DNA from: Verrucomicrobiia bacterium | Lineage (GTDB): Bacteria; Verrucomicrobiota; Verrucomicrobiia; Limisphaerales; UBA8199 | Assembly: GCA_035946615.1 (NCBI GenBank) | Contig: DASYZB010000001.1 | Location: 1-32,917, forward strand | DNA: 32,917 nucleotides | Reading direction: 5' to 3' | Shown: piece after piece, positions 5,143 to 15,904 of the stretch | Layout: each line of letters starts with the position of its first letter | How positions within the stretch are numbered: the stretch's first letter is position 1 | Translations under genes and position numbers: made by a program | Notes under the pieces: generated by a model | What the model was told of the DNA's origin: nothing | What the model saw: the letters and a program-made list of their open reading frames with translations, nothing else | Database searches by the model: none

Positions 5143-7320
5143 TCAACTGCCGGGCATCACGAAACAGTAGGCATCGTACCGCAGCTCGGTCCAGGCCAAT
5201 TCCGGCAGCGGTTGGCCGGGAAAGAGAGGAATGGCGACGGGTTTGAATTGAATCCGAACTCGGATTTCGGAGCGGTTTTGGGTGAGCCGCAGCGGAACGA
5301 GGAATTCATCATCACGGAAGCGGCGATTGGATGTTTCAACAATGTGTTGCGCTAGTCCCAGTTCATCTTTGGGGTTGGAATAAACGCAGGTGCTGCTCCC
5401 GGCCAAATACCAAACCCCGGCCAGCTTGAACTTGCCGGCAAGCCGGCCATCGGTGGTCCGGGCGACGAAGACCTCGGCGCGTTGATTGGAGAATTGATAA
5501 TCCAATTTGCGCCGCAGCAGAACGCCAAAATTGTGGGGCTCGATTTTGAGATTAAACTCAGAAATCCCTGTGGTTTTGCGGGCGATATCGGTGGTTGCAG
5601 GATAAATCTCTTTGCCGTGCAGGGTATCGACGCCCCACTCATAGCGTGAGGTAATCTCGTAAGGGGCCGAGGCCTGGGGTGACAGGTAACCATGCGCCTG
5701 TTCGCTCGTCGAGTCTCCGATCTTCAATTCATCAGTTTTAACGAGCGAGGGACGATTGACGCCGTACCAATAAGTCACGGTTTGGTAATGCTCGGTCGAG
5801 TCGTCCTGGCCGCCGTGTTCCAGGCAGATGCGAGCATTCCTGCCGAAGGGCATCAGGTCAGCCAATAAAAAGCGATAAGCCGATTCGATCTCATCCTCGG
5901 CGCATTTAGCCTCTTTGGCATTGGGCGCGCCTGTGGGATGCCCGGCAAAGGGCAGCGTCATGTTCCGGCCGCCCCAGTAGTCGCCTCCGCCGCACCATTC
6001 TTCGGTGCCGGTGCCCTGGACCTGGGGCGTCTGGCTGTCATCGAAGAAGAAGCGCGGGTCGCCTTCGAGGGTGTTAAGCACCGCGCGATCCGAGAAGATG
6101 AAAGAAGTGCCGACGAGATGCCCGGACCACTCTCCGCCGCCTTCAACCTGGCGAGTGTCCAGCAGGACCAGGTCGCGGCCAGGTGTGGGATTGGGGTGGT
6201 CGCGATAAGTCGCATGGAAGCAAGAGACAGCAAGTGGCGAGTCTCTCAAGGGTTCATAGCGGATAGACCAATGCACCGACAGAGGATGTTCAGATTCATT
6301 CACCAATTCGATTCGGGCGGCAGAGAAAAAAGGCATGGGAAAGAAACACGAGAGAAGAACCGAGCGAGAATCAAACCGGACATTCACCGGGAATGCTTTG
6401 ACCAGATATTCCCGATTGTCCCTGTTATAAAGCGTGCCCGCTCCGAAAAAGAGCGCTATAGGCGCATCCACTGAGGGGTAGGGCGCATCATCCCACGTGA
6501 TGCGCAGATGCGCGCGACCGAAATCGAGGGCCTGCTCGCGCGATACCGAAAACTGCAAGGCACGAATCATCCCAGGGGCGTCCCGCAGGTCTAAAATGCG
6601 AAGCGTGGCCTTTGATAGGAGTTGGTTGTCTTGGGATTGTTCTTTGAGCTGGAGGCGGCGTCCTTCTTTCGAATCGGCTTGGGGAACAAGGTCGGCGCCG
6701 GAACGGGAGAGCAATTCGAGCACGCCGGCTTCCGGGCGCCGGCGTTCGGACCAGGAACCGATGGGACGTGACAACTTGGCGCCAGGGACGTACTGCTGAT
6801 AAATATAGTAACCGGTGCCATAATGAGTCTGGGAATAAGCCATCCGAAAGGTTTTACTGAAAGAAATGGGTACCCAGGACAAATCTGCGCCCTTGGTGAA
6901 TGACCAGGTCCAGGTTAGCGGATTCGGGAAGGCTTGTTCGGGCAAAAAGATGGACCCAGGAACAGGGTTAAGCGGGTTTGCTGTGGTGGTTTCCTGGATT
7001 ACATGGTCCGCTCCATCAACCTCATAATGCCATGGGCTGCCGTGCCAATGGTTGTAGCGGACGAAGTAGAGGATTCCTGGCCCCTGCAGGTCCAAGGTGA
7101 CGTTGCGGTCGCCGGCTAATTGATAAAGGAAGTGGCTGGCGTCGGCGCCTTCATTTCCGCCGCGCCGGTCATAGGTGCTGCGCATATAGGCGCGGGCGCC
7201 GATGCGCTGGTAGGGCCAGCGCTCCCAAAGGCGGTAGGCATCTGTCCCGATGGGGATAAGGGGCGGTTCGCCTGCCCGGCCAGGCGCACCTGAAAGAAGC
7301 AAGAGCAACAGAAAGCTCAC
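5143..7320 (-). CDS. Secreted DUF2961 (glycoside hydrolase family 172-type) protein
   Basis: A 725-aa protein. I place the start at GTG 7320-7318, which overlaps the trxB stop as GTGA and opens into a signal peptide (M-SFLLLLLLSGAPGRAG). An upstream ATG at 7416 would put 32 arginine-rich residues ahead of that leader. The DUF2961 core signature is 'GTGTEEWCGGGDYW' (about 436-449), followed by 'EHGGQDD' near 501. DUF2961 proteins are now grouped as GH172, whose characterised members act on fructofuranose or arabinofuranose linkages. The substrate here cannot be read from sequence. Verrucomicrobia often carry many such secreted polysaccharide enzymes. Coupling to trxB is unusual for this family. 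Confidence 0.9.
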   Translation of the reverse strand: MSFLLLLLLSGAPGRAGEPPLIPIGTDAYRLWERWPYQRIGARAYMRSTYDRRGGNEGADASHFLYQLAGDRNVTLDLQGPGILYFVRYNHWHGSPWHYEVDGADHVIQETTTANPLNPVPGSIFLPEQAFPNPLTWTWSFTKGADLSWVPISFSKTFRMAYSQTHYGTGYYIYQQYVPGAKLSRPIGSWSERRRPEAGVLELLSRSGADLVPQADSKEGRRLQLKEQSQDNQLLSKATLRILDLRDAPGMIRALQFSVSREQALDFGRAHLRITWDDAPYPSVDAPIALFFGAGTLYNRDNREYLVKAFPVNVRFDSRSVLLSCFFPMPFFSAARIELVNESEHPLSVHWSIRYEPLRDSPLAVSCFHATYRDHPNPTPGRDLVLLDTRQVEGGGEWSGHLVGTSFIFSDRAVLNTLEGDPRFFFDDSQTPQVQGTGTEEWCGGGDYWGGRNMTLPFAGHPTGAPNAKEAKCAEDEIESAYRFLLADLMPFGRNARICLEHGGQDDSTEHYQTVTYWYGVNRPSLVKTDELKIGDSTSEQAHGYLSPQASAPYEITSRYEWGVDTLHGKEIYPATTDIARKTTGISEFNLKIEPHNFGVLLRRKLDYQFSNQRAEVFVARTTDGRLAGKFKLAGVWYLAGSSTCVYSNPKDELGLAQHIVETSNRRFRDDEFLVPLRLTQNRSEIRVRIQFKPVAIPLFPGQPLPELAWTELRYDAYCFVMPGS

Positions 7321-8246
7321 TCGTTTCTGGCAGCCAGGAATCGTTCGACCTCGATGGCCGCCGCACAGCCTTGGCCGGCGGCAGTGACTGCCTGGCGATA
7401 GACACGGTCGGCGCAATCCCCGGCGACAAATACTCCGGGCACATTCGTCGCTGTGCCCCGCTTGGGTAGAATGTAACCGTCGGCGTCCATATCGATAACG
7501 CCCTTAAAAAGTTGCGTGCTGGGTATATGGCCGATGGCAACAAACACACCCGCGGCATCGACCGTGCTTTGGCTGCCGGTTTTGACATCCTTGAGGCGCA
7601 CGCCCGTCACGGTTCCCTGTTGAACATCCAGCACCTCGGTAACGACGGAATTCCAAATCGGTTTGATCTTCGGGTTGGATAAGGCACGCTCAACCATAAT
7701 CTTGGAGGCGCGCAGGGCATCCCGGCGATGGACGAGGTGCACTGTCGAGCCGAAACGAGTCAGATACATCGCCTCTTCACAGGCGGAATCGCCACCGCCG
7801 ACAACCACCAAAGGTTTGTTGCGGAACCTGGGCAGGGCACCGTCGCAGGTGGCGCAATAGGTGACGCCTTTGTTCTCGAGCTTGAGCTCGCTCTCGAGTT
7901 CGAGGTGCCGGTGAGCGGCCCCACTGGCGATGATGAGGGTGTCGGTTTCTACGCGTTGGCCATCGACCGTAAGGGCAAAAGGCCGGCGACCTAAATCGGC
8001 GGCCTCGAGGACGCCGAATTGCACACGGCCGCCGAAGCGTTCGGCTTGTTTCTGCATCCGGACCATGAGTTCGTAACCGTCAATCCCTTCGGGGAATCCG
8101 GGATAATTCTCGACAACGGTGGTGGTGGTGAGCAAGCCGCCCGGCTGGCGGCCAGAGATAACCAAGGGACGCAGATTGGCCCGCGCCGCATACAAGGCAG
8201 CAGTCAGGCCGGCGCATCCGGAGCCGATGATGACGAGTTTTTCCAT
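7317..8246 (-). CDS. trxB: Thioredoxin-disulfide reductase
   Basis: A 309-aa FAD/NADPH flavoprotein that reduces thioredoxin. I start it at the ATG 8246, giving 'MEKLVIIGSGCAG'; the TTG at 8288 adds 14 unconserved residues. The redox pair is Cys131-Ala-Thr-Cys134 (CATCDGA). The NADPH-binding motif GGGDSACEEA follows at 150-159, and the C-terminal 'GVFVAGDCAD' binds FAD. One oddity is residue 11: the usual Pro of GSGPAG in the FAD dinucleotide motif is Cys. The 160-nt upstream gap should hold its promoter. Its stop codon overlaps the start of the DUF2961 gene. Confidence 0.95.
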   Translation of the reverse strand: MEKLVIIGSGCAGLTAALYAARANLRPLVISGRQPGGLLTTTTVVENYPGFPEGIDGYELMVRMQKQAERFGGRVQFGVLEAADLGRRPFALTVDGQRVETDTLIIASGAAHRHLELESELKLENKGVTYCATCDGALPRFRNKPLVVVGGGDSACEEAMYLTRFGSTVHLVHRRDALRASKIMVERALSNPKIKPIWNSVVTEVLDVQQGTVTGVRLKDVKTGSQSTVDAAGVFVAIGHIPSTQLFKGVIDMDADGYILPKRGTATNVPGVFVAGDCADRVYRQAVTAAGQGCAAAIEVERFLAARNE

Positions 8247-8405
8247 ATCCGGGAGCCGAAAGCTAGGTGTTGGAGTGGAGCTTGGCAAGAGCGGTTACTG
8301 ATGGTGGGGTGGACAGAGGGACCTCTGCGATGGCGCGACAGCGCGGCGAGTCGGAAGGGGGGAGAAGGTCCGGCAGCACACTTACACATGATTTGCTCGT
8401 TGCGG

Positions 8406-8841: not shown

Positions 8842-11800
8842 TTATGAGGGATGAAAGGCTCCATCGAGGCAGGAACGGATGGTGTCCAGCAGGCGCGATG
8901 GGTTGCAAGGTTTAGCCAAAAATCGGGCATTGATGCGCCGGACGAACTCGGTATTTGTGCCGAGTAAATCGCCGCTATAGCCGCTCATAAAAGCGACTTT
9001 GAGCCCGGGCTTCTCGAGGAGCAGTCGTTCGGCCAATTCGCGACCGGTAACGCCGCCCGGCATCACCACATCCGTCAACAACAGGTCCAGTTCCTTGGCG
9101 CGGGAGAGCCAAAGCCGGAGCGCCTCGGCCCCGGAAGGGGCCTCGAGCACCCGATAGCCGTGCTTTTCCAGAATCCGAAGTGTCAAGGCGCGAACCGAGT
9201 CGTCGTCTTCGACCAGCAAAATGGTTTCCGTTCCGCCCGGCGGTTTTGTTTGGGTCGGCTCTTCCTGCGGTTGAGTCACCGGAGCGTCCACACCTGGGAG
9301 GAAGACGCGGAAAGTGGAACCGACGCCCGGCTGGGTGTTGACATCGAGCCAGCCCTGGTGCTGGGCGACGATGCCATAAACGGTAGCCAGACCAAGACCG
9401 GTGCCTTTGCCGGCCACTTTGGTGGTGAAAAAGGGCTCGAATATCCTGGGTAAATGCTCCGGGGCAATGCCGGTGCCCGAGTCACGCACAGTGAGGACGG
9501 CGAACTGCCCGGGGCGGGCCTCGGCATGGCTGGAAAGGGAGTCCTCGGTGAAGGCCGCCGATTCAGTGGCAATGACGAGCTGGCCGCCTTTGGGCATGGC
9601 ATCACGGGCATTGACGACAAGGTTGACCAGCACTTGCTCGATCATGCCCGCATCGGCGCGGATGGCAGGAAGCCGGGCTGCATAGGTGCATTGCAATTGA
9701 ATGTCCTCACCGATAATGCGCTTGAGCATTTTGGTGAGGTTGCCCACGACATCATTGAGGTCCAGGACCTGGGGCTGCATGACCTGTTTGCGGCTGAAGG
9801 TAAGCAATTGGCGGGTGAGGTTGGCGGCCCGCTCCGCCGCTGTGGTAAGCTGTCCCAGGCACTCGACATTCTCACTGTTGAGATGGGCTGGTTCCATGAG
9901 AATCAATTCAGCATTGCCACGGATAACGGCGAGGAGATTGTTGAAATCGTGAGCAATGCCCCCGGCCAATTTGCCAATGGCGTCCATTTTCTGGGCCTGG
10001 CGCAGTTGCTCTTCGAGTTCCTTGCGCTGGCCGATGTCCTGTTTGATAGCGATGTAATGGGTGATGATGCCGCTCTCATTGCGAACCGGGGTGATGGTCA
10101 TCTCCTCGCTATAGAGGCTGCCGTCCTTCCGTTTGTTGATTATCTCTCCGCGCCAAACTTTCCCTGAACTAATTGTTCCCCAGAGCACGCGGTAAAACTC
10201 CGGCCCATGCTCGCCGGACTTGAGGACGCTGACGTTTTTTCCGACGAGGTCCTGGGAGTTGTAGCCGGTGAGCCGGGTGAGGGCGGTGTTGTGCCACAAA
10301 ACGGTTCCCTGTGGATTGGTAATGAGAATCCCATTGGCGGCGGATTCGAGGGCGGCGCCCTGGAGTTGGAGCTCTTCACGCTGCGCAAAGAACTCGGTTG
10401 CGAAGGCGAGGTCGTTAGCCAGTTGTTCGAGCAGTTTGATGTCTTCGGAATCAAAGCAGTGCGCTTCGGCGCTATAGAGAGCCAGGACACCATTGGGGCC
10501 GCTTTTGAAGCGTAATGGAAAGGCAGCAACTGAACGGTATCCATACTCTGCCATGGCTGAACGCCAGGGGGCGACCCGTGGATCGGCCTGCACGTCGTTG
10601 CAAACCTGGTATTTTCCCTCTCGAATCGCTGTGCCCGCAGGACCAAGGCCTTCGGGTTGGTCGGCGGCGGTCGAGACCCGCAAGTTCCGAAGGTAACCTG
10701 GGTGAAAGCCGAAATGGGCGAGAGGCTTGACCATGCCGGTAGCCAGGTCCGGCGCCCCAACCCAGGCCAATCGGAACAGTCCGGCTTTGACGGCAATGCG
10801 GCAGGCCTGCTGATAAAGGACCTCGGGCGAAGGCGAACGAACAATTAGTTCATTGATTTTGCTCAGGACCGAATAAAGCCGGTTCAGACGCAGAATGCGT
10901 TCGGAGGCACGTTTATGCTGGAGGGCATTGGCCAAAACCTGGCCTGTCATGGCCAATAATCCCACGTCATCTTCGCTCCACAACCGTTCCTCACGGGTAG
11001 TGTCCAATGTCAAAACCCCGATGAGCGAATCTCCGTAAACCAGCGGGGCGGCCAAAAGTGATTTTATCTGGAGTGCATGAAAAAGCTCTCGTTCGGCCTG
11101 TGCCTCAGGGGGCAAATCCTGCATGTCGGGCAGGTTGACCAGCTCGGAGCTGGTAAACTTGTCCTTAAACCAGGAGAACGGTTGGGAGGCGAAGACATTG
11201 AGCCGGGCGATGTGGGTAGCAACGCCCTTTGCGGACCATTGGTGTGTGTTCTGTGCGGTGCGGGAGTCTGGGGTTAAGCAATAGAGACAAGAGTGGTCGG
11301 CGCCGGTGAAGGTGCCGATAATTTCCAGAGCGCGTCCAATGGCGGTGTCTGTTTGGCGCGGAGGCAGGTTGATGAAGCTGGCGGACAAGGTGGAGACGAG
11401 CTTATCTCTCTCGGCGCGATGGAGGAGGGATTCCTGGGCCTGGATTCGGTCGAGGGCGCCGCCGCAGTGATCGGCCAGGGCTTGCAGGGTTTCGAGGCTA
11501 TGCTGATCGTAGGCGGCAGAGGTGTAGCTTTGAATCGATAGAATGCCAATGACACTTGCGCCGCTTTTGACGGGCACAAACAAAAGGGATGCGGAAGGCC
11601 GCGTGACGTCGCCAAAAGGCACGGCATCAGGCAGCAGGCGGCCGGCTTGTGTGCGCAAGAGCAGTTGGCCACCCTGTTGGAGAACGCGGCGCACCAGCGG
11701 GGATGGCGGTTTCTGATGAAAGGCCGGAAACTCAGCCAGATTCTCCGCGCGCCGCCCATTGACAACATCTGCGCTCAGCACGCTCCGAAGGACATCTTGC

Positions 11801-12078
11801 TGCGCTGAATAAAGAGAAAAGCTGCAAGAATCCCAGCCAAGCAACTTGTCTGCAACATCCACAATGATTTGTGCGGCGGCCCGGGCCGTTTTGGCCACCG
11901 CAAGGCGGTGGCCCAATTGGGAGAAGGCCTCGATGCGCGCCTCGACGCCGTTGGTGGCTTTGAGCAAAGGCTGTGCGGAGGAAGCGCCGCGCGGAGTTCG
12001 GCGGCCAATGTTCCTGCTTAGGGCAGCGGTTATGCCCGGGAAGGGCTGCTTGGGTTTCGGAGGGCGTCTGAGCTTCAT
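8842..12078 (-). CDS. Hybrid sensor histidine kinase, GAFx3-PAS-HisKA-HATPase-REC
   Basis: A 1078-aa cytosolic kinase starting at ATG 12078, which overlaps the preceding response regulator's stop as ATGA. Domains by inspection: GAF about 45-210, GAF 220-390, GAF 404-566, PAS 574-684 (ending in a PAC-like '[18 protein letters not shown]'), HisKA with phospho-acceptor His710 in [10 protein letters not shown], HATPase 810-930 (N box [11 protein letters not shown] boxes DSGTGIA and GKGTGLGLA), and REC 951-1074 with phospho-acceptor Asp1003 ([11 protein letters not shown]). There are no membrane segments, so it senses a cytosolic or diffusible signal through the GAF/PAS array. The internal REC implies a phosphorelay needing an Hpt protein or another receiver; no Hpt gene is in the window. 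Confidence 0.93.
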
Positions 12079-12662
12079 GGCGGTTGGGTGCTTGCCGCCG
12101 GCGTGGGCTCGAGCGCATCGATTTCGCTTTTGAGCTTGTTGAAACAATCCGGACAATAGCTGTGGGTGAAGCGGGCGTCGGTGTGCTCGGCAACAAAGGT
12201 TTCGACCTGATGCCAATAATTCTGGTCATCCCGCACCTTTTTGCAGAGGCAGCAGATGGGAAGCATGCCGGCCAATTGCTTTACCTGCGATTGGAGGCTC
12301 AAGATGCGTTCAGCCACCACCAGCCGGGCGGCCAGAACCTCTTGATCAAATGGTTTGGTAATAAAGTCATCTGCCCCGGCGGCCATGCCATCGAGGTAGC
12401 TGGATTTTCCGCCCACCATCGTCAGCAAGATGAAGTAAGTATAATGAGAACGATTGGCTTGGCGTATCCGCCGGCACAAGTCCAGTCCGTCTATCTCCGG
12501 CATGAGCATGTCCGAGATAACTACGGGCACACTGCCTTTATCGAAAAGGGTTAAGGCCTCCAGACCATCGGCGGCCAGGGTGACTGCATGGCCGAGCCGT
12601 TTCAGGCTTCTCTCGAGGGCCATCCTGCAAATCCGGTCATCATCGACGATTAGGATATTCAT
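12075..12662 (-). CDS. Response regulator with C-terminal four-cysteine module
   Basis: 195 aa. The receiver domain occupies residues 1-120, with acidic pocket DDD at 7-9, phospho-acceptor Asp51 (VVISDMLMPEIDG), Thr81 and Lys103 (TKPF). A short helical linker (LQSQVKQLAGMLPIC) leads to a compact module, 'CCLCKKVRDDQNYW' ... 'HSYCPDCFNK', in which Cys137, Cys140, Cys170 and Cys173 could bind a metal. This module appears at the C termini of various PAS/REC signalling proteins, but I know of no defined function. There is no DNA-binding domain. Overlap with the hybrid kinase gene makes them likely partners. A 235-nt gap precedes the gene and probably holds the promoter. Confidence 0.88.
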   Translation of the reverse strand: MNILIVDDDRICRMALERSLKRLGHAVTLAADGLEALTLFDKGSVPVVISDMLMPEIDGLDLCRRIRQANRSHYTYFILLTMVGGKSSYLDGMAAGADDFITKPFDQEVLAARLVVAERILSLQSQVKQLAGMLPICCLCKKVRDDQNYWHQVETFVAEHTDARFTHSYCPDCFNKLKSEIDALEPTPAASTQPP

Positions 12663-12897: not shown

Positions 12898-13566
12898 CTA
12901 CGGATTCCGGGCTTCTGCCCAGCGGATAGCATAACGGACGAGGTCGGTACCTGTATGGAGTTGGAGCTTTTTTTTGATATTGGCGCGATGGACCTCGACG
13001 GTTTTGATGCTCAGGTGAAGGTGCTCGGCTATCTGGCGTGTGCCCTGGCCGCGGGCAATGAGTTCGAAGACCTCGAATTCACGGTCGGAGAGTTGCTCGA
13101 TGGGTGAGCGGGTCGCTGGGGCGCGATGGCCGGAGAATGCCTCGAGGATTTGGGCCGACATTTTATCGCTGACATAGATTTTGCCGGCCAAGACCTGGCG
13201 GATGGCGTCCATCAGCTTTTTGCCCCCTTCCTGTTTCATAATATAACCACGTCCGCCGGCGCACAGGACGCGTTCGGCATAGAGGGCTTCGTCATGCATC
13301 GAGACGACCAAGATGGGGAGGTTCGGGTGGATGGTATGGATGTCCTTGATGAGTTCCAGCCCGCTGCGATCGGGCAGGGAGATATCGACCAGAATCAGGT
13401 CGGGGAGTTGCTTGGAGAGGGCGCTGAGGGCTTGGGTGGCATTTTCGGCCTGGCCGCCGGTCAGCAAGTCCGGTTCGTGTTCGATCAACTGGGCCAGGCC
13501 CTCGCGCATCATAGGGTGGTCATCGACAATGAGGATGCGTTTCCGGCCTGTTGCGCCCGTTTTCAT
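12898..13566 (-). CDS. NarL/FixJ-family response regulator (LuxR-type HTH)
   Basis: 222 aa. The receiver domain spans about 9-125, with acidic residues Asp15-Asp16, phospho-acceptor Asp61 (LILVDISLPDRSG), Ser94 and Lys114-ish switch residues. A LuxR-type helix-turn-helix spans 155-215: 'LSDREFEVFELIARGQGTRQIAEHLHLSIKTVEVHR'-like segments are visible with the standard 'SIKTVEVHRANIKKKL' recognition region. It is a transcription activator controlled by phosphorylation. Its ATG shares one base with the stop of the HisKA_3 kinase upstream (TGATG), a classic cognate pair arrangement. Confidence 0.95.
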   Translation of the reverse strand: MKTGATGRKRILIVDDHPMMREGLAQLIEHEPDLLTGGQAENATQALSALSKQLPDLILVDISLPDRSGLELIKDIHTIHPNLPILVVSMHDEALYAERVLCAGGRGYIMKQEGGKKLMDAIRQVLAGKIYVSDKMSAQILEAFSGHRAPATRSPIEQLSDREFEVFELIARGQGTRQIAEHLHLSIKTVEVHRANIKKKLQLHTGTDLVRYAIRWAEARNP

Positions 13567-14999
13567 CAGGATTCCTTTTGAATCGGAGGGCGCAGAGGGA
13601 GCGAGCAGGTCACGCGCATGCCGCCCTGGACATTCGGCTCGATGGAGAGCCGCCCTCCAATCAGCCCGGCGCGATGTTGCATAATGCGCAAACCCATTCC
13701 GTTTTGCTTGGGGAGAGTTTGGGAAAAGCCGTTGCCATTGTCGATGACAGTCAGCAGGAGGCGCTCGGGGTCGGATTCCATACGGATGACAATATGAGTG
13801 GCTTTGCCATGGCGGATGGCATTGGAGACGGCCTCCTGGGCGATACGATAAAGGTGAGTGGCGGCGGCAGGGGCACAGGGCGGACTGCGGTGCGGGGCTT
13901 CAACACGGCATGAAACCCCAAACATCTTCTGCGCGCTGGAGGCCAGTTCCTCGAGGGCCGAGGCCAACCCTTCGGTCTCAATGGTGACTGGGGACAAGCC
14001 GCGCGCCAGGGAACGGGTTTGGCCGATGGCTTCGCGGACGTGCCGGGCAATTTCACCCGCGCGCGCGGCGTCGGCCTTGGATTTGGGGGCCAACTTTTGT
14101 TCGAGAACCTGGCTCATCAGCTCGATGCCGGCCAGGTGCTGACAAATGCCGTCGTGGAGGTCCTGGCCGATGCGGCGGCGCTCCTGGTCGCTGATTTCCA
14201 GGACTTCGCGTTCGAGCCTTTTGCGCTCGGTAACATCGCGGAAAATGATGAGCCAGTGAGTTGGCTTTCCGGACTGGTCGCGCACGGGCCCGATGCGCCA
14301 CTCGCCCCAGCGCTCGCCCTGAGGGGTGAGGTAGGTGGAAAGCTCTTCGAGGGCGGGAACACCCTGGGGCAAGCCGGCGCGCAATCTTGCGGAGACCTGT
14401 GAGAGGCCGCTTAAGGCGCTCAAGGGGCGGCCAATGACTTTCTCCGGGGCGTAGCCTGTGGCCTGAGCAAAGGCTGGATTGATATAGACCACCTTGGGGT
14501 CGGGCGCTTCGGCGTTGGTGATTAAGACGGCGCTGAAGCCCTGCTCGACCACGCTGCGCACCACGCGCACCTGCTCCTCGGCTTCGGCAAGCCGGCGCTC
14601 GTTGGTGAGCTGGTCCAGGGCCCGTTTGACTACTTCCGGGACGAACTGGAGGAAATCGACATCCTTAACCAGATAATCCCGGGCGCCGCGTTTCATCATC
14701 TCAACCGCGACGCGCTCGTCGCCCTGACCGGTAATGATGATGAAAGGCGGACAGCGGTTATCGGCGGTGAGTTGCTGAACGAGTTGTTTGCCGTCAATAT
14801 CCTGAAGCTTCAGGTCCAGCAACATCAACTCGACCTGATCGCGCGCCAGCCAGTCCCGGGCCTCTTTGCCCGAGAGGGCGGCAGCGGTGGAGAACCCTTC
14901 GCGCTGGAGGGCCTTTTGGATAAGGCGCACCAACCCGCGGTCATCATCGACGATGAACACGGTCGCCTGGCCTTGCTGCTTGCCGGTCCGGGCATTCAT
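13566..14999 (-). CDS. REC-PAS-HisKA_3 sensor histidine kinase
   Basis: 477 aa from the ATG at 14999 (MNARTGKQQGQATVFIVDDD). The open frame continues to 15230, but that stretch translates palindromic repeat DNA. An N-terminal receiver spans 12-125 with phospho-acceptor Asp62 (MLLDLKLQDIDG). A PAS domain spans 145-260 (VYINPAFAQATGY ... FRDVTERK), and the HisKA_3 dimerisation motif carries His282 (QERRRIGQDLHDGICQHL). A HATPase_c domain runs from about 375 to 470 (EAVSNAIRHG, DNGNGF). This is the NarX/DegS-type kinase class that pairs with LuxR-type regulators, and the overlapping downstream gene is one. The N-terminal REC suggests control by another kinase in the island. Confidence 0.93.
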   Translation of the reverse strand: MNARTGKQQGQATVFIVDDDRGLVRLIQKALQREGFSTAAALSGKEARDWLARDQVELMLLDLKLQDIDGKQLVQQLTADNRCPPFIIITGQGDERVAVEMMKRGARDYLVKDVDFLQFVPEVVKRALDQLTNERRLAEAEEQVRVVRSVVEQGFSAVLITNAEAPDPKVVYINPAFAQATGYAPEKVIGRPLSALSGLSQVSARLRAGLPQGVPALEELSTYLTPQGERWGEWRIGPVRDQSGKPTHWLIIFRDVTERKRLEREVLEISDQERRRIGQDLHDGICQHLAGIELMSQVLEQKLAPKSKADAARAGEIARHVREAIGQTRSLARGLSPVTIETEGLASALEELASSAQKMFGVSCRVEAPHRSPPCAPAAATHLYRIAQEAVSNAIRHGKATHIVIRMESDPERLLLTVIDNGNGFSQTLPKQNGMGLRIMQHRAGLIGGRLSIEPNVQGGMRVTCSLPLRPPIQKES

Positions 15000-15095
15000 G
15001 GAGCCGGTCGGCGCATCAAAGCGTGTTTGGTAAATGGTTTCAGCCTCCTCATGCCACTTGAGTCCGTGTCGCTCCACAGATAGGAGCGCAAGGCA

Positions 15096-15307
15096 GGAAA
15101 CCGTTGAAAACGGTTTCCTTTGCTGCTCGGGTCCGCCAACACCCCGCTGAAGCGGGGTGTTAATGAGAGTCGCACAGCCCTGAAGAATCCGGTCGAGCGC
15201 ACCCTCGTAGTCGAACTGCGGGAAAAGCAATGACTAGTACTATAACAGAGAAGTTTCGAGACAGAGGGCCTCCTCTCCCTAGCCCTCTCCTCCAAAGGAG
15301 GAGAGGG
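15096..15307. repeat. Three perfect hairpins upstream of the HisKA_3 kinase
   Basis: The 452-nt gap 15000-15451 carries three perfect short hairpins. GGAAACCGTT-GAA-AACGGTTTCC lies at 15096-15118. AACACCCCGCT-GA-AGCGGGGTGTT lies at 15138-15161. CCCTCTCCTCC-AAA-GGAGGAGAGGG lies at 15283-15307. Read through, the second gives the peptide string 'NTPLQRGV', which I remember from many spurious ORFs in Verrucomicrobia, supporting dispersed repeats. No other gene is supported in the gap. A promoter for the downstream kinase may also lie here. Confidence 0.8.
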
Positions 15308-15451
15308 AATTGCTTTCCGACGCATGTGAGGAAACTTGGCTGCCAGTTTACTAGAACGAGGAGGATAAGCAGCCTGAACATTTTTGAAAGACGTTCGCAG
15401 GCGCATGGGGTTTGAGAGGGTTCCAGCTTCGGAAGACGCGTCTGACTTTGC

Positions 15452-15904
15452 TCAGGAGTTGCCGTCGATCTCCGGGACTTTTACCAGAGAGATGTACAGG
15501 CCCAGGCTTTTGATCGCTTCTGCGAACTTATCATAATCGACCGGCTTGACGATATAACTGGCGCAGCCGATGGCATGGCAACGTTCGACCTCGCGCGGGT
15601 CGTCTGTGGTGGTGAGCATGATGACTGGGATTTTGCGCAGTTCGGGGTTCTCTTTGATCTGGCGCAGCACCTCAACTCCATCGACCTGCGGCATGCGAAT
15701 ATCCAGCAGCAGGAGGTAGGGTGTGTCATGCGCCCGGTGCGACCCGGCCCCGCGCCGGAACAGGAAGTCCAATACCGCTTGCCCATTGGCAAAGCGCTCG
15801 ATCTTGTTGTGCAGGCCCCCACGCGTCAGATTTTTCTCAATCAACCGCGCGTGGCCGGCGTCGTCTTCAGCTATCAGAATCACCACTTCGCGAGCCTCAC
15901 TCAT
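15452..15904 (-). CDS. Rcp1-type single-domain response regulator
   Basis: 150 aa consisting of a receiver domain only. Acidic residues Glu13, Asp14 and Asp15, phospho-acceptor Asp68 (LLLLDIRMPQVDG), Thr98-Thr99 (MLTTTDDPREV) and Lys119 (VKPVDY) are all present. The insertion before the acceptor (FRRGAGSHRAHDTPYLLLLD) and the 'ENPELRKIPVIMLTTTDDPREVERCHAIG' style are typical of the Rcp1/cyanobacterial-phytochrome regulator family. These relay phosphate or modulate kinases rather than bind DNA. It sits at the head of the signalling island, separated from the kinase by the repeat block. Confidence 0.93.
   Translation of the reverse strand: MSEAREVVILIAEDDAGHARLIEKNLTRGGLHNKIERFANGQAVLDFLFRRGAGSHRAHDTPYLLLLDIRMPQVDGVEVLRQIKENPELRKIPVIMLTTTDDPREVERCHAIGCASYIVKPVDYDKFAEAIKSLGLYISLVKVPEIDGNS

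Follow-up and report, generated by a model that had tools for sequence, protein, structure and literature searches.

The window, i.e. the whole analysed stretch of 32,917 nucleotides of DNA from a Verrucomicrobiia bacterium, carries on its minus strand a gene (12075..12662; ORF translation and Pfam) that encodes a response regulator of 195 amino acids. The protein consists of a receiver (REC) domain, a coiled-coil linker and a C-terminal module with four cysteines (Cys4 module), and all of its parts are given here in minus-strand coordinates. The REC domain (residues 3-114, 12321..12656) matches Pfam PF00072 with an E-value of 5e-26 and has the complete set of residues that marks it as a response regulator receiver, namely the acidic pair D8/D9, the phosphoacceptor D51, T81 and K103, the last being followed by P104. 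Helix alpha-5 of the REC domain and the coiled-coil linker take up residues 107-136 (12255..12344), and the Cys4 output module residues 130-184 (12111..12275). The protein contains seven cysteines (at positions 12, 63, 137, 138, 140, 170 and 173). Those that are conserved throughout the family form the first CxxC pair, C137/C140 (12243..12254), and the second one, the CPxC of C170/C173 (12144..12155), with 29 residues between the two pairs. The additional C138 belongs to a column that mostly holds Ala or Ser and is a Cys in 9 of 145 modules.

The gene overlaps that of a hybrid histidine kinase of 1078 amino acids (8842..12078, minus strand) in an ATGA (12075..12078, minus strand), in which the stop codon of the regulator (12075-12077) and the ATG of the kinase (12076-12078) share two bases. 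According to Pfam the kinase comprises three GAF stretches, PAS, HisKA, HATPase_c and REC. The preliminary description of this DNA, which had pointed to two cysteine pairs in a C-terminal module of the regulator, to the overlap of stop and start, and to a hybrid kinase with three GAF domains, was accurate on all these points. In view of the gene overlap the hybrid kinase is the probable phosphodonor of the regulator. Three other two-component genes (12898-15904) lie directly upstream on the same strand and were assigned with Pfam: a REC-only protein (15452-15904), a REC-PAS-HisKA_3 kinase (13566-15230) and a REC-LuxR regulator (12898-13566), the latter two genes sharing one overlapping base. 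Together with the response regulator and the hybrid kinase they form a signalling cluster of five genes. On the other side of the hybrid kinase, and separated from it by one small ORF, lies a gene (7317-8288, minus strand) that was named trxB-like from its sequence.

Conservation and spread of the Cys4 module

The Cys4 module is a domain of about 50 amino acids that is found in many bacterial phyla. With a motif pattern we collected 136 distinct ORFs, each encoding one module per protein. The span from the first to the last Cys was 37 residues in 134 of the 136, where the pattern permitted any length from 24 to 46. The module is C-terminal: in the 135 ORFs that reach a stop codon the last Cys is followed by 4-72 residues, and by more than 35 in five ORFs only. 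The longest tail, of 72 residues, was observed in L139:2798-4219 (the next longest has 47); by eye it resembles a winged helix, and it has no Pfam match at 0.001.

In a profile search of the loci all four cysteines were present in 144 of 145 distinct modules, together with Trp150 (145/145), His167 (143/145), Arg144 (142/145), Lys141 (141/145), Tyr156 (140/145; a Phe in the window protein), Asp146 (136/145) and Glu154 (134/145), counts that come from loci partly fetched by module peptide patterns and from profiles made of Cys-bearing rows. Loci that were fetched without a Cys-containing peptide pattern yielded 59 modules, part of them obtained with a profile itself made from Cys-bearing rows, and here the four cysteines and the Trp were found in all 59, the His in 58, and the Arg and the Lys in 56 each. 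The conserved Cys4 module is likely to bind a metal. In a single locus (L087) an Arg replaces the third Cys of an otherwise intact module, which represents either a sequencing error or a true loss.

A search with the tail of the response regulator revealed six copies of the module in the bacterium's own genome. Three are REC-Cys4 proteins (including the one in the window), and the others are a REC-PAS-Cys4 protein, a DUF4118-PAS-Cys4 protein and a protein of 143 amino acids. The last of these (L006:1270-1698, on contig C121) contains a divergent module without the KIRDD stretch, has no Pfam match, and may mark a second subfamily of the module. Within the phylum, a search with a profile built from 28 modules (Cys-bearing rows) detected the module in 148 of the 387 genomes sampled, and in 126 of the 311 genomes with a completeness of 90% or more and a contamination of 5% or less. 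Seven closer sequences, scanned against a public genome collection, provided at least 578 relatives. The record titles of the best 80 of these contain at least ten phylum-level names: Deltaproteobacteria or Desulfobacterales, Chloroflexi, Verrucomicrobia, Bacteroidetes, Nitrospirae, Zixiibacteriota, Hydrogenedentota, Spirochaetes, Acidobacteria, Ignavibacteriae and Proteobacteria. As these 80 are the best matches, they do not measure how frequent the module is in the various phyla. An origin from mobile elements was rejected, considering that the module of one relative, used as the query, matched none of 50,697 phage records and a single one of 72,556 plasmid records. The module is also encoded on three IMG/VR contigs (L177, L178 and L179), which may reflect either contamination by host DNA or carriage by phages.

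Attached domains, linker lengths and gene neighbours

The domains attached to the module were surveyed with Pfam in the proteins shorter than 620 amino acids (128 of 135). REC was detected in 53 of them and any one PAS model in at most 36, and other inputs that precede the module are HAMP, GAF, Cache, MASE3, 7TM, CHASE and solute-binding domains. The preliminary description had suggested a search for the cysteine module in fusion with other signalling domains, and these are such fusions. No output domain was present among the 25 of 39 Pfam families listed for the 128 proteins. Likewise, kinase, cyclase, phosphodiesterase and DNA-binding families were all absent from 20 long module proteins that were examined singly (the ten longest of the 136 ORFs and ten from long open frames of the phylum-sample search), and in one long module protein (1133 amino acids) no domain at all was recognised at E 1e-6. 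A phmmer test with two queries derived from the window identified a kinase ATPase domain in none of 89 module proteins, and neither a GGDEF nor a DHp-CA output is found in the window regulator or in the 20 long homologues. Considering its C-terminal position and the lack of a catalytic output beside it in the proteins surveyed, the module occupies the place of an output domain.

The sequence that precedes the first Cys has hydrophobic residues at positions -21, -17, -14, -10, -7 and -3, as well as at -20 and -13, and these two extra positions give the coiled-coil pattern an ambiguous a/d/e register. A REC match was obtained for 58 of the 145 module proteins; the 12 with more than 75 residues (93 to 483) between the conserved REC Lys and the first Cys were left out. 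In 39 of the remaining 46 this distance is 27, 34, 41, 48 or 55 residues, lengths that are congruent modulo seven, and the window protein belongs to one of these heptad-spaced classes with 34 residues from K103 to C137. More specifically, a heptad-quantised linker counted from the KP motif, as goes with a coiled-coil-driven output, is found in 39 of the 40 KP-type proteins, the other one having a length of 56. The REC domains that lack the KP proline do not belong to the heptad class, with a length of 49 in five cases and of 54 in one. The five with a linker of 49 (L029, L065, L084, L110 and L127) are one residue off the phase of the KP type, which perhaps reflects a different REC geometry. 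The probability that five of the six distinct KP-type lengths are congruent by chance is ~9e-5, and that for five of the eight distinct lengths overall is 8.7e-4, both on the assumption of independent lengths and both post hoc, so that shared ancestry and choice after seeing the data weaken them. The length of 48 is common to 29 of the 46 proteins, with a median identity of only 32% between the REC domains of these 29.

The connection to PAS domains could be measured in a comparable manner. These domains usually end in a D-[IVL]-[ST] motif, and in 40 of the 55 proteins that have such a motif within 14-100 residues of the first Cys, the last one lies 35 residues ahead of it. A stricter pattern for the end of PAS gave 35 of 39 at this distance and a looser one 36 of 50.

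Linkers of this kind have been described in the literature. In Rec-GGDEF proteins the linker lengths go in steps of seven with an axxdexx pattern, and the register of the coiled coil switches on pseudo-phosphorylation, according to a published report (PMC8041772). For Rec-DHp proteins, a preference of the linker for multiples of seven, counted from the KP motif, is reported in PMC13269768. In view of this parallel, of the heptad-spaced linkers and of the phosphoacceptor Asp, which is kept in all 58 REC domains of the module proteins, the module is most likely a dimeric output that is switched by the coiled coil.

The gene calls around the module are longest-ORF calls, made without a gene finder. 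A kinase gene immediately adjoins 12 of 26 REC-Cys4 genes versus 6 of 63 other Cys4 genes, as expected if the REC-Cys4 proteins are phosphorylated response regulators and most of the others are one-component sensors. In the search for effector genes we considered 62 neighbours on the same strand, at a distance of less than 150 bases and shorter than 1400 amino acids, and scanned 61 of them, leaving out a doubtful gene call (L112:3296-4276). HATPase_c was present in 18 of these 61 and Hpt in 5. No recurrent effector gene was found beside the module among the 25 of 74 families listed for these 61 neighbours, ranked by members; the families listed that recur beyond two-component and sensory domains are the solute-binding Phosphonate-bd (3) and NMT1 (2). 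Since no effector recurs beside the module, its partner is probably encoded elsewhere.

The particular couple of regulator and kinase in the window could not be recovered in other genomes. The nearest homologue of the regulator (68% identity) shares a four-base overlap with another hybrid kinase (PAS-REC-REC-Hpt), and the gene of that kinase is located upstream of the regulator and not downstream as in the window. The N-terminal 570 amino acids of the window kinase had no match exceeding ~230 residues in any of 115 further genomes from the order. A dedicated pair was rejected on the grounds that the nearest homologue uses another kinase and that the three-GAF kinase was not found elsewhere as a unit. 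In addition, no trxB-like gene was found in the 84 other module loci (mostly ~10 kb each; together with the window they amount to 859 kb and 773 gene calls), and a redox pair with trxB was rejected as a conserved link. The preliminary description had proposed a metal- or redox-dependent signalling pair and had related it to the nearby trxB. Of this proposal the four conserved cysteines, with their likely metal, were retained, and so was the connection between regulator and kinase as a type (12/26). The redox part was abandoned, considering the loci without trxB, the different kinase beside the nearest homologue, and the fact that most module genes without REC have no kinase neighbour. Thus, because the kinase unit, the pairing and trxB were not found elsewhere whereas the module itself is conserved, a private redox pair does not constitute a conserved theme.

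Structure models and family matches

The structure models are monomeric, and the alignments behind them are shallow (46 and 77 rows). The AlphaFold2 model of the full response regulator had a mean pLDDT of 86.9 and a pTM of 0.58, with values of 70-89 for the blocks of the module, the lowest (70) being around the first CxxC. The runs with the isolated module were split (mean pLDDT 88, 87, 73, 72 and 69). The best one (88.3), with blocks of 88-96 over residues 131-180, predicts a strand (131-137), two helices (138-144 and 149-160), a second strand (162-168) and a last helix (171-184). In the model of the full regulator residues 137 and 168 are the sole strand or bridge residues of the module, and the two models thus disagree on the length of the strands. 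On the basis of these models residues 137 and 168 would pair, the strands would be parallel, and both CxxC pairs would meet at the strand ends. The preliminary description had named a structural model with the two cysteine pairs far apart as a result that would refute its reading; no such placement appeared here, and the predicted secondary structure suggests that the pairs are placed side by side.

A comparison of the isolated module with the PDB by Foldseek gave no fold match at E <=0.001 (best E 1.2), and VIA-align no Z >=2 in any of 464 chains, the model of 70 residues limiting both searches. The absence of a PDB fold match for a module of this size is no proof of a new fold. The 50 of 1506 Foldseek matches listed for the whole regulator were receiver-domain structures and are therefore silent on the tail. 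At the sequence level, none of the PDB matches to the tail was significant (E 0.28 at best, and 0.82 with a profile). Pfam matched nothing over the tail either, and none of the 25 of 101 NCBIfam families listed did, as all of these cover the REC part. With 28 isolated modules as the input, no NCBIfam family was matched at 0.01, and the Pfam matches were scattered over 31 families; among the 25 of these that were listed the best E-value was 0.0007, for DUF7558 (4 members), and there was no significant match to a named zinc-finger or zinc-ribbon family. The known zinc families and the thioredoxin fold were rejected for the module on the basis of Pfam, NCBIfam, Foldseek and VIA-align together. 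No family model for the Cys4 module was found in Pfam or NCBIfam. In a search of the open literature, motif strings included, no published account of the module was recognised.

Proposed mode of action and related systems

We consider it reasonably probable that the module is a dimeric output domain that a metal, probably Zn, stabilises and that phosphorylation of REC switches via the coiled coil, with a partner in trans as its target. According to this proposal the overlapping hybrid kinase would phosphorylate D51 of the REC domain, helix alpha-5 of which would extend into a parallel, dimeric coiled coil that has the ambiguous a/d/e heptad pattern. An altered packing of this coiled coil could then reposition the two Cys4 modules of the dimer. 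Each of them would bind one metal ion, most likely Zn, by its four cysteines, and this ion probably holds the module together, while the conserved polar residues K141, R144, D146, E154 and H167 may serve the partner, the gene of which would lie elsewhere. PAS, GAF, CHASE, Cache or transmembrane sensors would drive the same module in other proteins.

Three other explanations deserve attention. The module could be a nucleic-acid-binding zinc finger, such that phosphorylation of REC switches on the binding of DNA or RNA. The REC output HalOD2, which has two CxxC pairs, was proposed to bind DNA or RNA (PMC5847659), and the tail of the homologue L139 looks like a winged helix, be it without a Pfam match. 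However, residues 127-186 of the window protein contain 7 Lys and Arg versus 9 Asp and Glu, the matches of the module to such families are weak and scattered among the 25 of 31 listed, and a structural match in the PDB is lacking, so we regard this explanation as unlikely. Lower still is our estimate for a thiol redox or labile-metal sensor, in which disulfides in the CxxC pairs or loss of the metal would change the regulator or the kinase. The isolated model puts the first CxxC where a strand ends and a helix begins, which is a thioredoxin-like arrangement, and there are weak, non-significant matches to DsbC (E 0.82) and to Thioredoxin_2 (2 of 28 members, best E 0.15). Nevertheless, thioredoxins appear among the 50 Foldseek matches listed only at E 3 or worse and with an rmsd of ~12 A, all four cysteines are co-conserved at one spacing, and the module comes after very varied sensors at the C-terminal, output end of proteins whose loci, 84 apart from the window, have no trxB-like gene. 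The least probable explanation is a passive metal-stabilised dimer cap, in which the protein would in effect be a REC on its own, acting as a shuttle or drain for phosphate, and the tail would only hold the dimer: kinases do adjoin 12 of the 26 REC-Cys4 genes and Hpt is present in 5 of the 61 nearby genes scanned around Cys4 genes of every type, but the same tail ends one-component sensors without REC, for which a phosphate sink makes no sense, and the near-invariant Lys, Arg, Asp, Glu and His are in our judgement more than a cap needs.

Taken as a dimeric metal module switched by a coiled coil, it may even represent an undescribed major output class beside the histidine kinases and the diguanylate cyclases, by which very different sensors address one conserved cellular partner, although we put this forward as a tentative and rather doubtful generalization. 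If true, it would provide an output for many proteins that are now seen as PAS- or REC-only. Many bacterial REC, PAS and GAF proteins resemble sensors without an effector, and for a share of them, across many phyla, the module would be a common end-point. The mode of switching, by a heptad-spaced coiled coil, is testable, and the list of residues for mutation is short. Moreover, identification of the partner would give a function to hundreds of proteins, considering the at least 578 relatives.

The proposed arrangement has several counterparts among known signalling proteins. As in the signaling helix (S-helix) proteins (PMC1592074), a helical linker joins the sensory and the output domains. 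The words 'cysteine', 'zinc' and 'chelating' have no occurrence in the main text of that paper, and its architecture figure includes unnamed 'uncharacterized domains' (PMC1592074). Like the Cys4 module, the archaeal domains HalOD2 (PF18547) and TackOD1 (PF18551) are linked to REC, contain CxxC motifs, are predicted to bind metal and are uncharacterised (PMC5847659). Both were rejected as the identity of the module: the window regulator matches neither Pfam model (E up to 1), and the spacing or the number of the cysteines differs. HalOD2 is found in a few halobacteria and its CxxC pairs are 20-25 residues apart, whereas the pairs of the Cys4 module are 29 apart and the module is widespread in bacteria; TackOD1 has 11 cysteines versus four conserved ones in the Cys4 module (PMC5847659). 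The Rec-controlled histidine kinase LvrB shares with the Cys4 family the preference for multiples of seven in the linker between the KP motif of REC and the output (PMC13269768). Its output, however, is DHp-CA, and the REC-Cys4 proteins have no kinase domain. Similarly, the window regulator is without the GGDEF of the Rec-GGDEF diguanylate cyclases DgcR and WspR, and its output is the module of ~50 amino acids, to which no activity is assigned, but it resembles them in that helix alpha-5 of REC continues as a coiled coil into a C-terminal output (PMC8041772).
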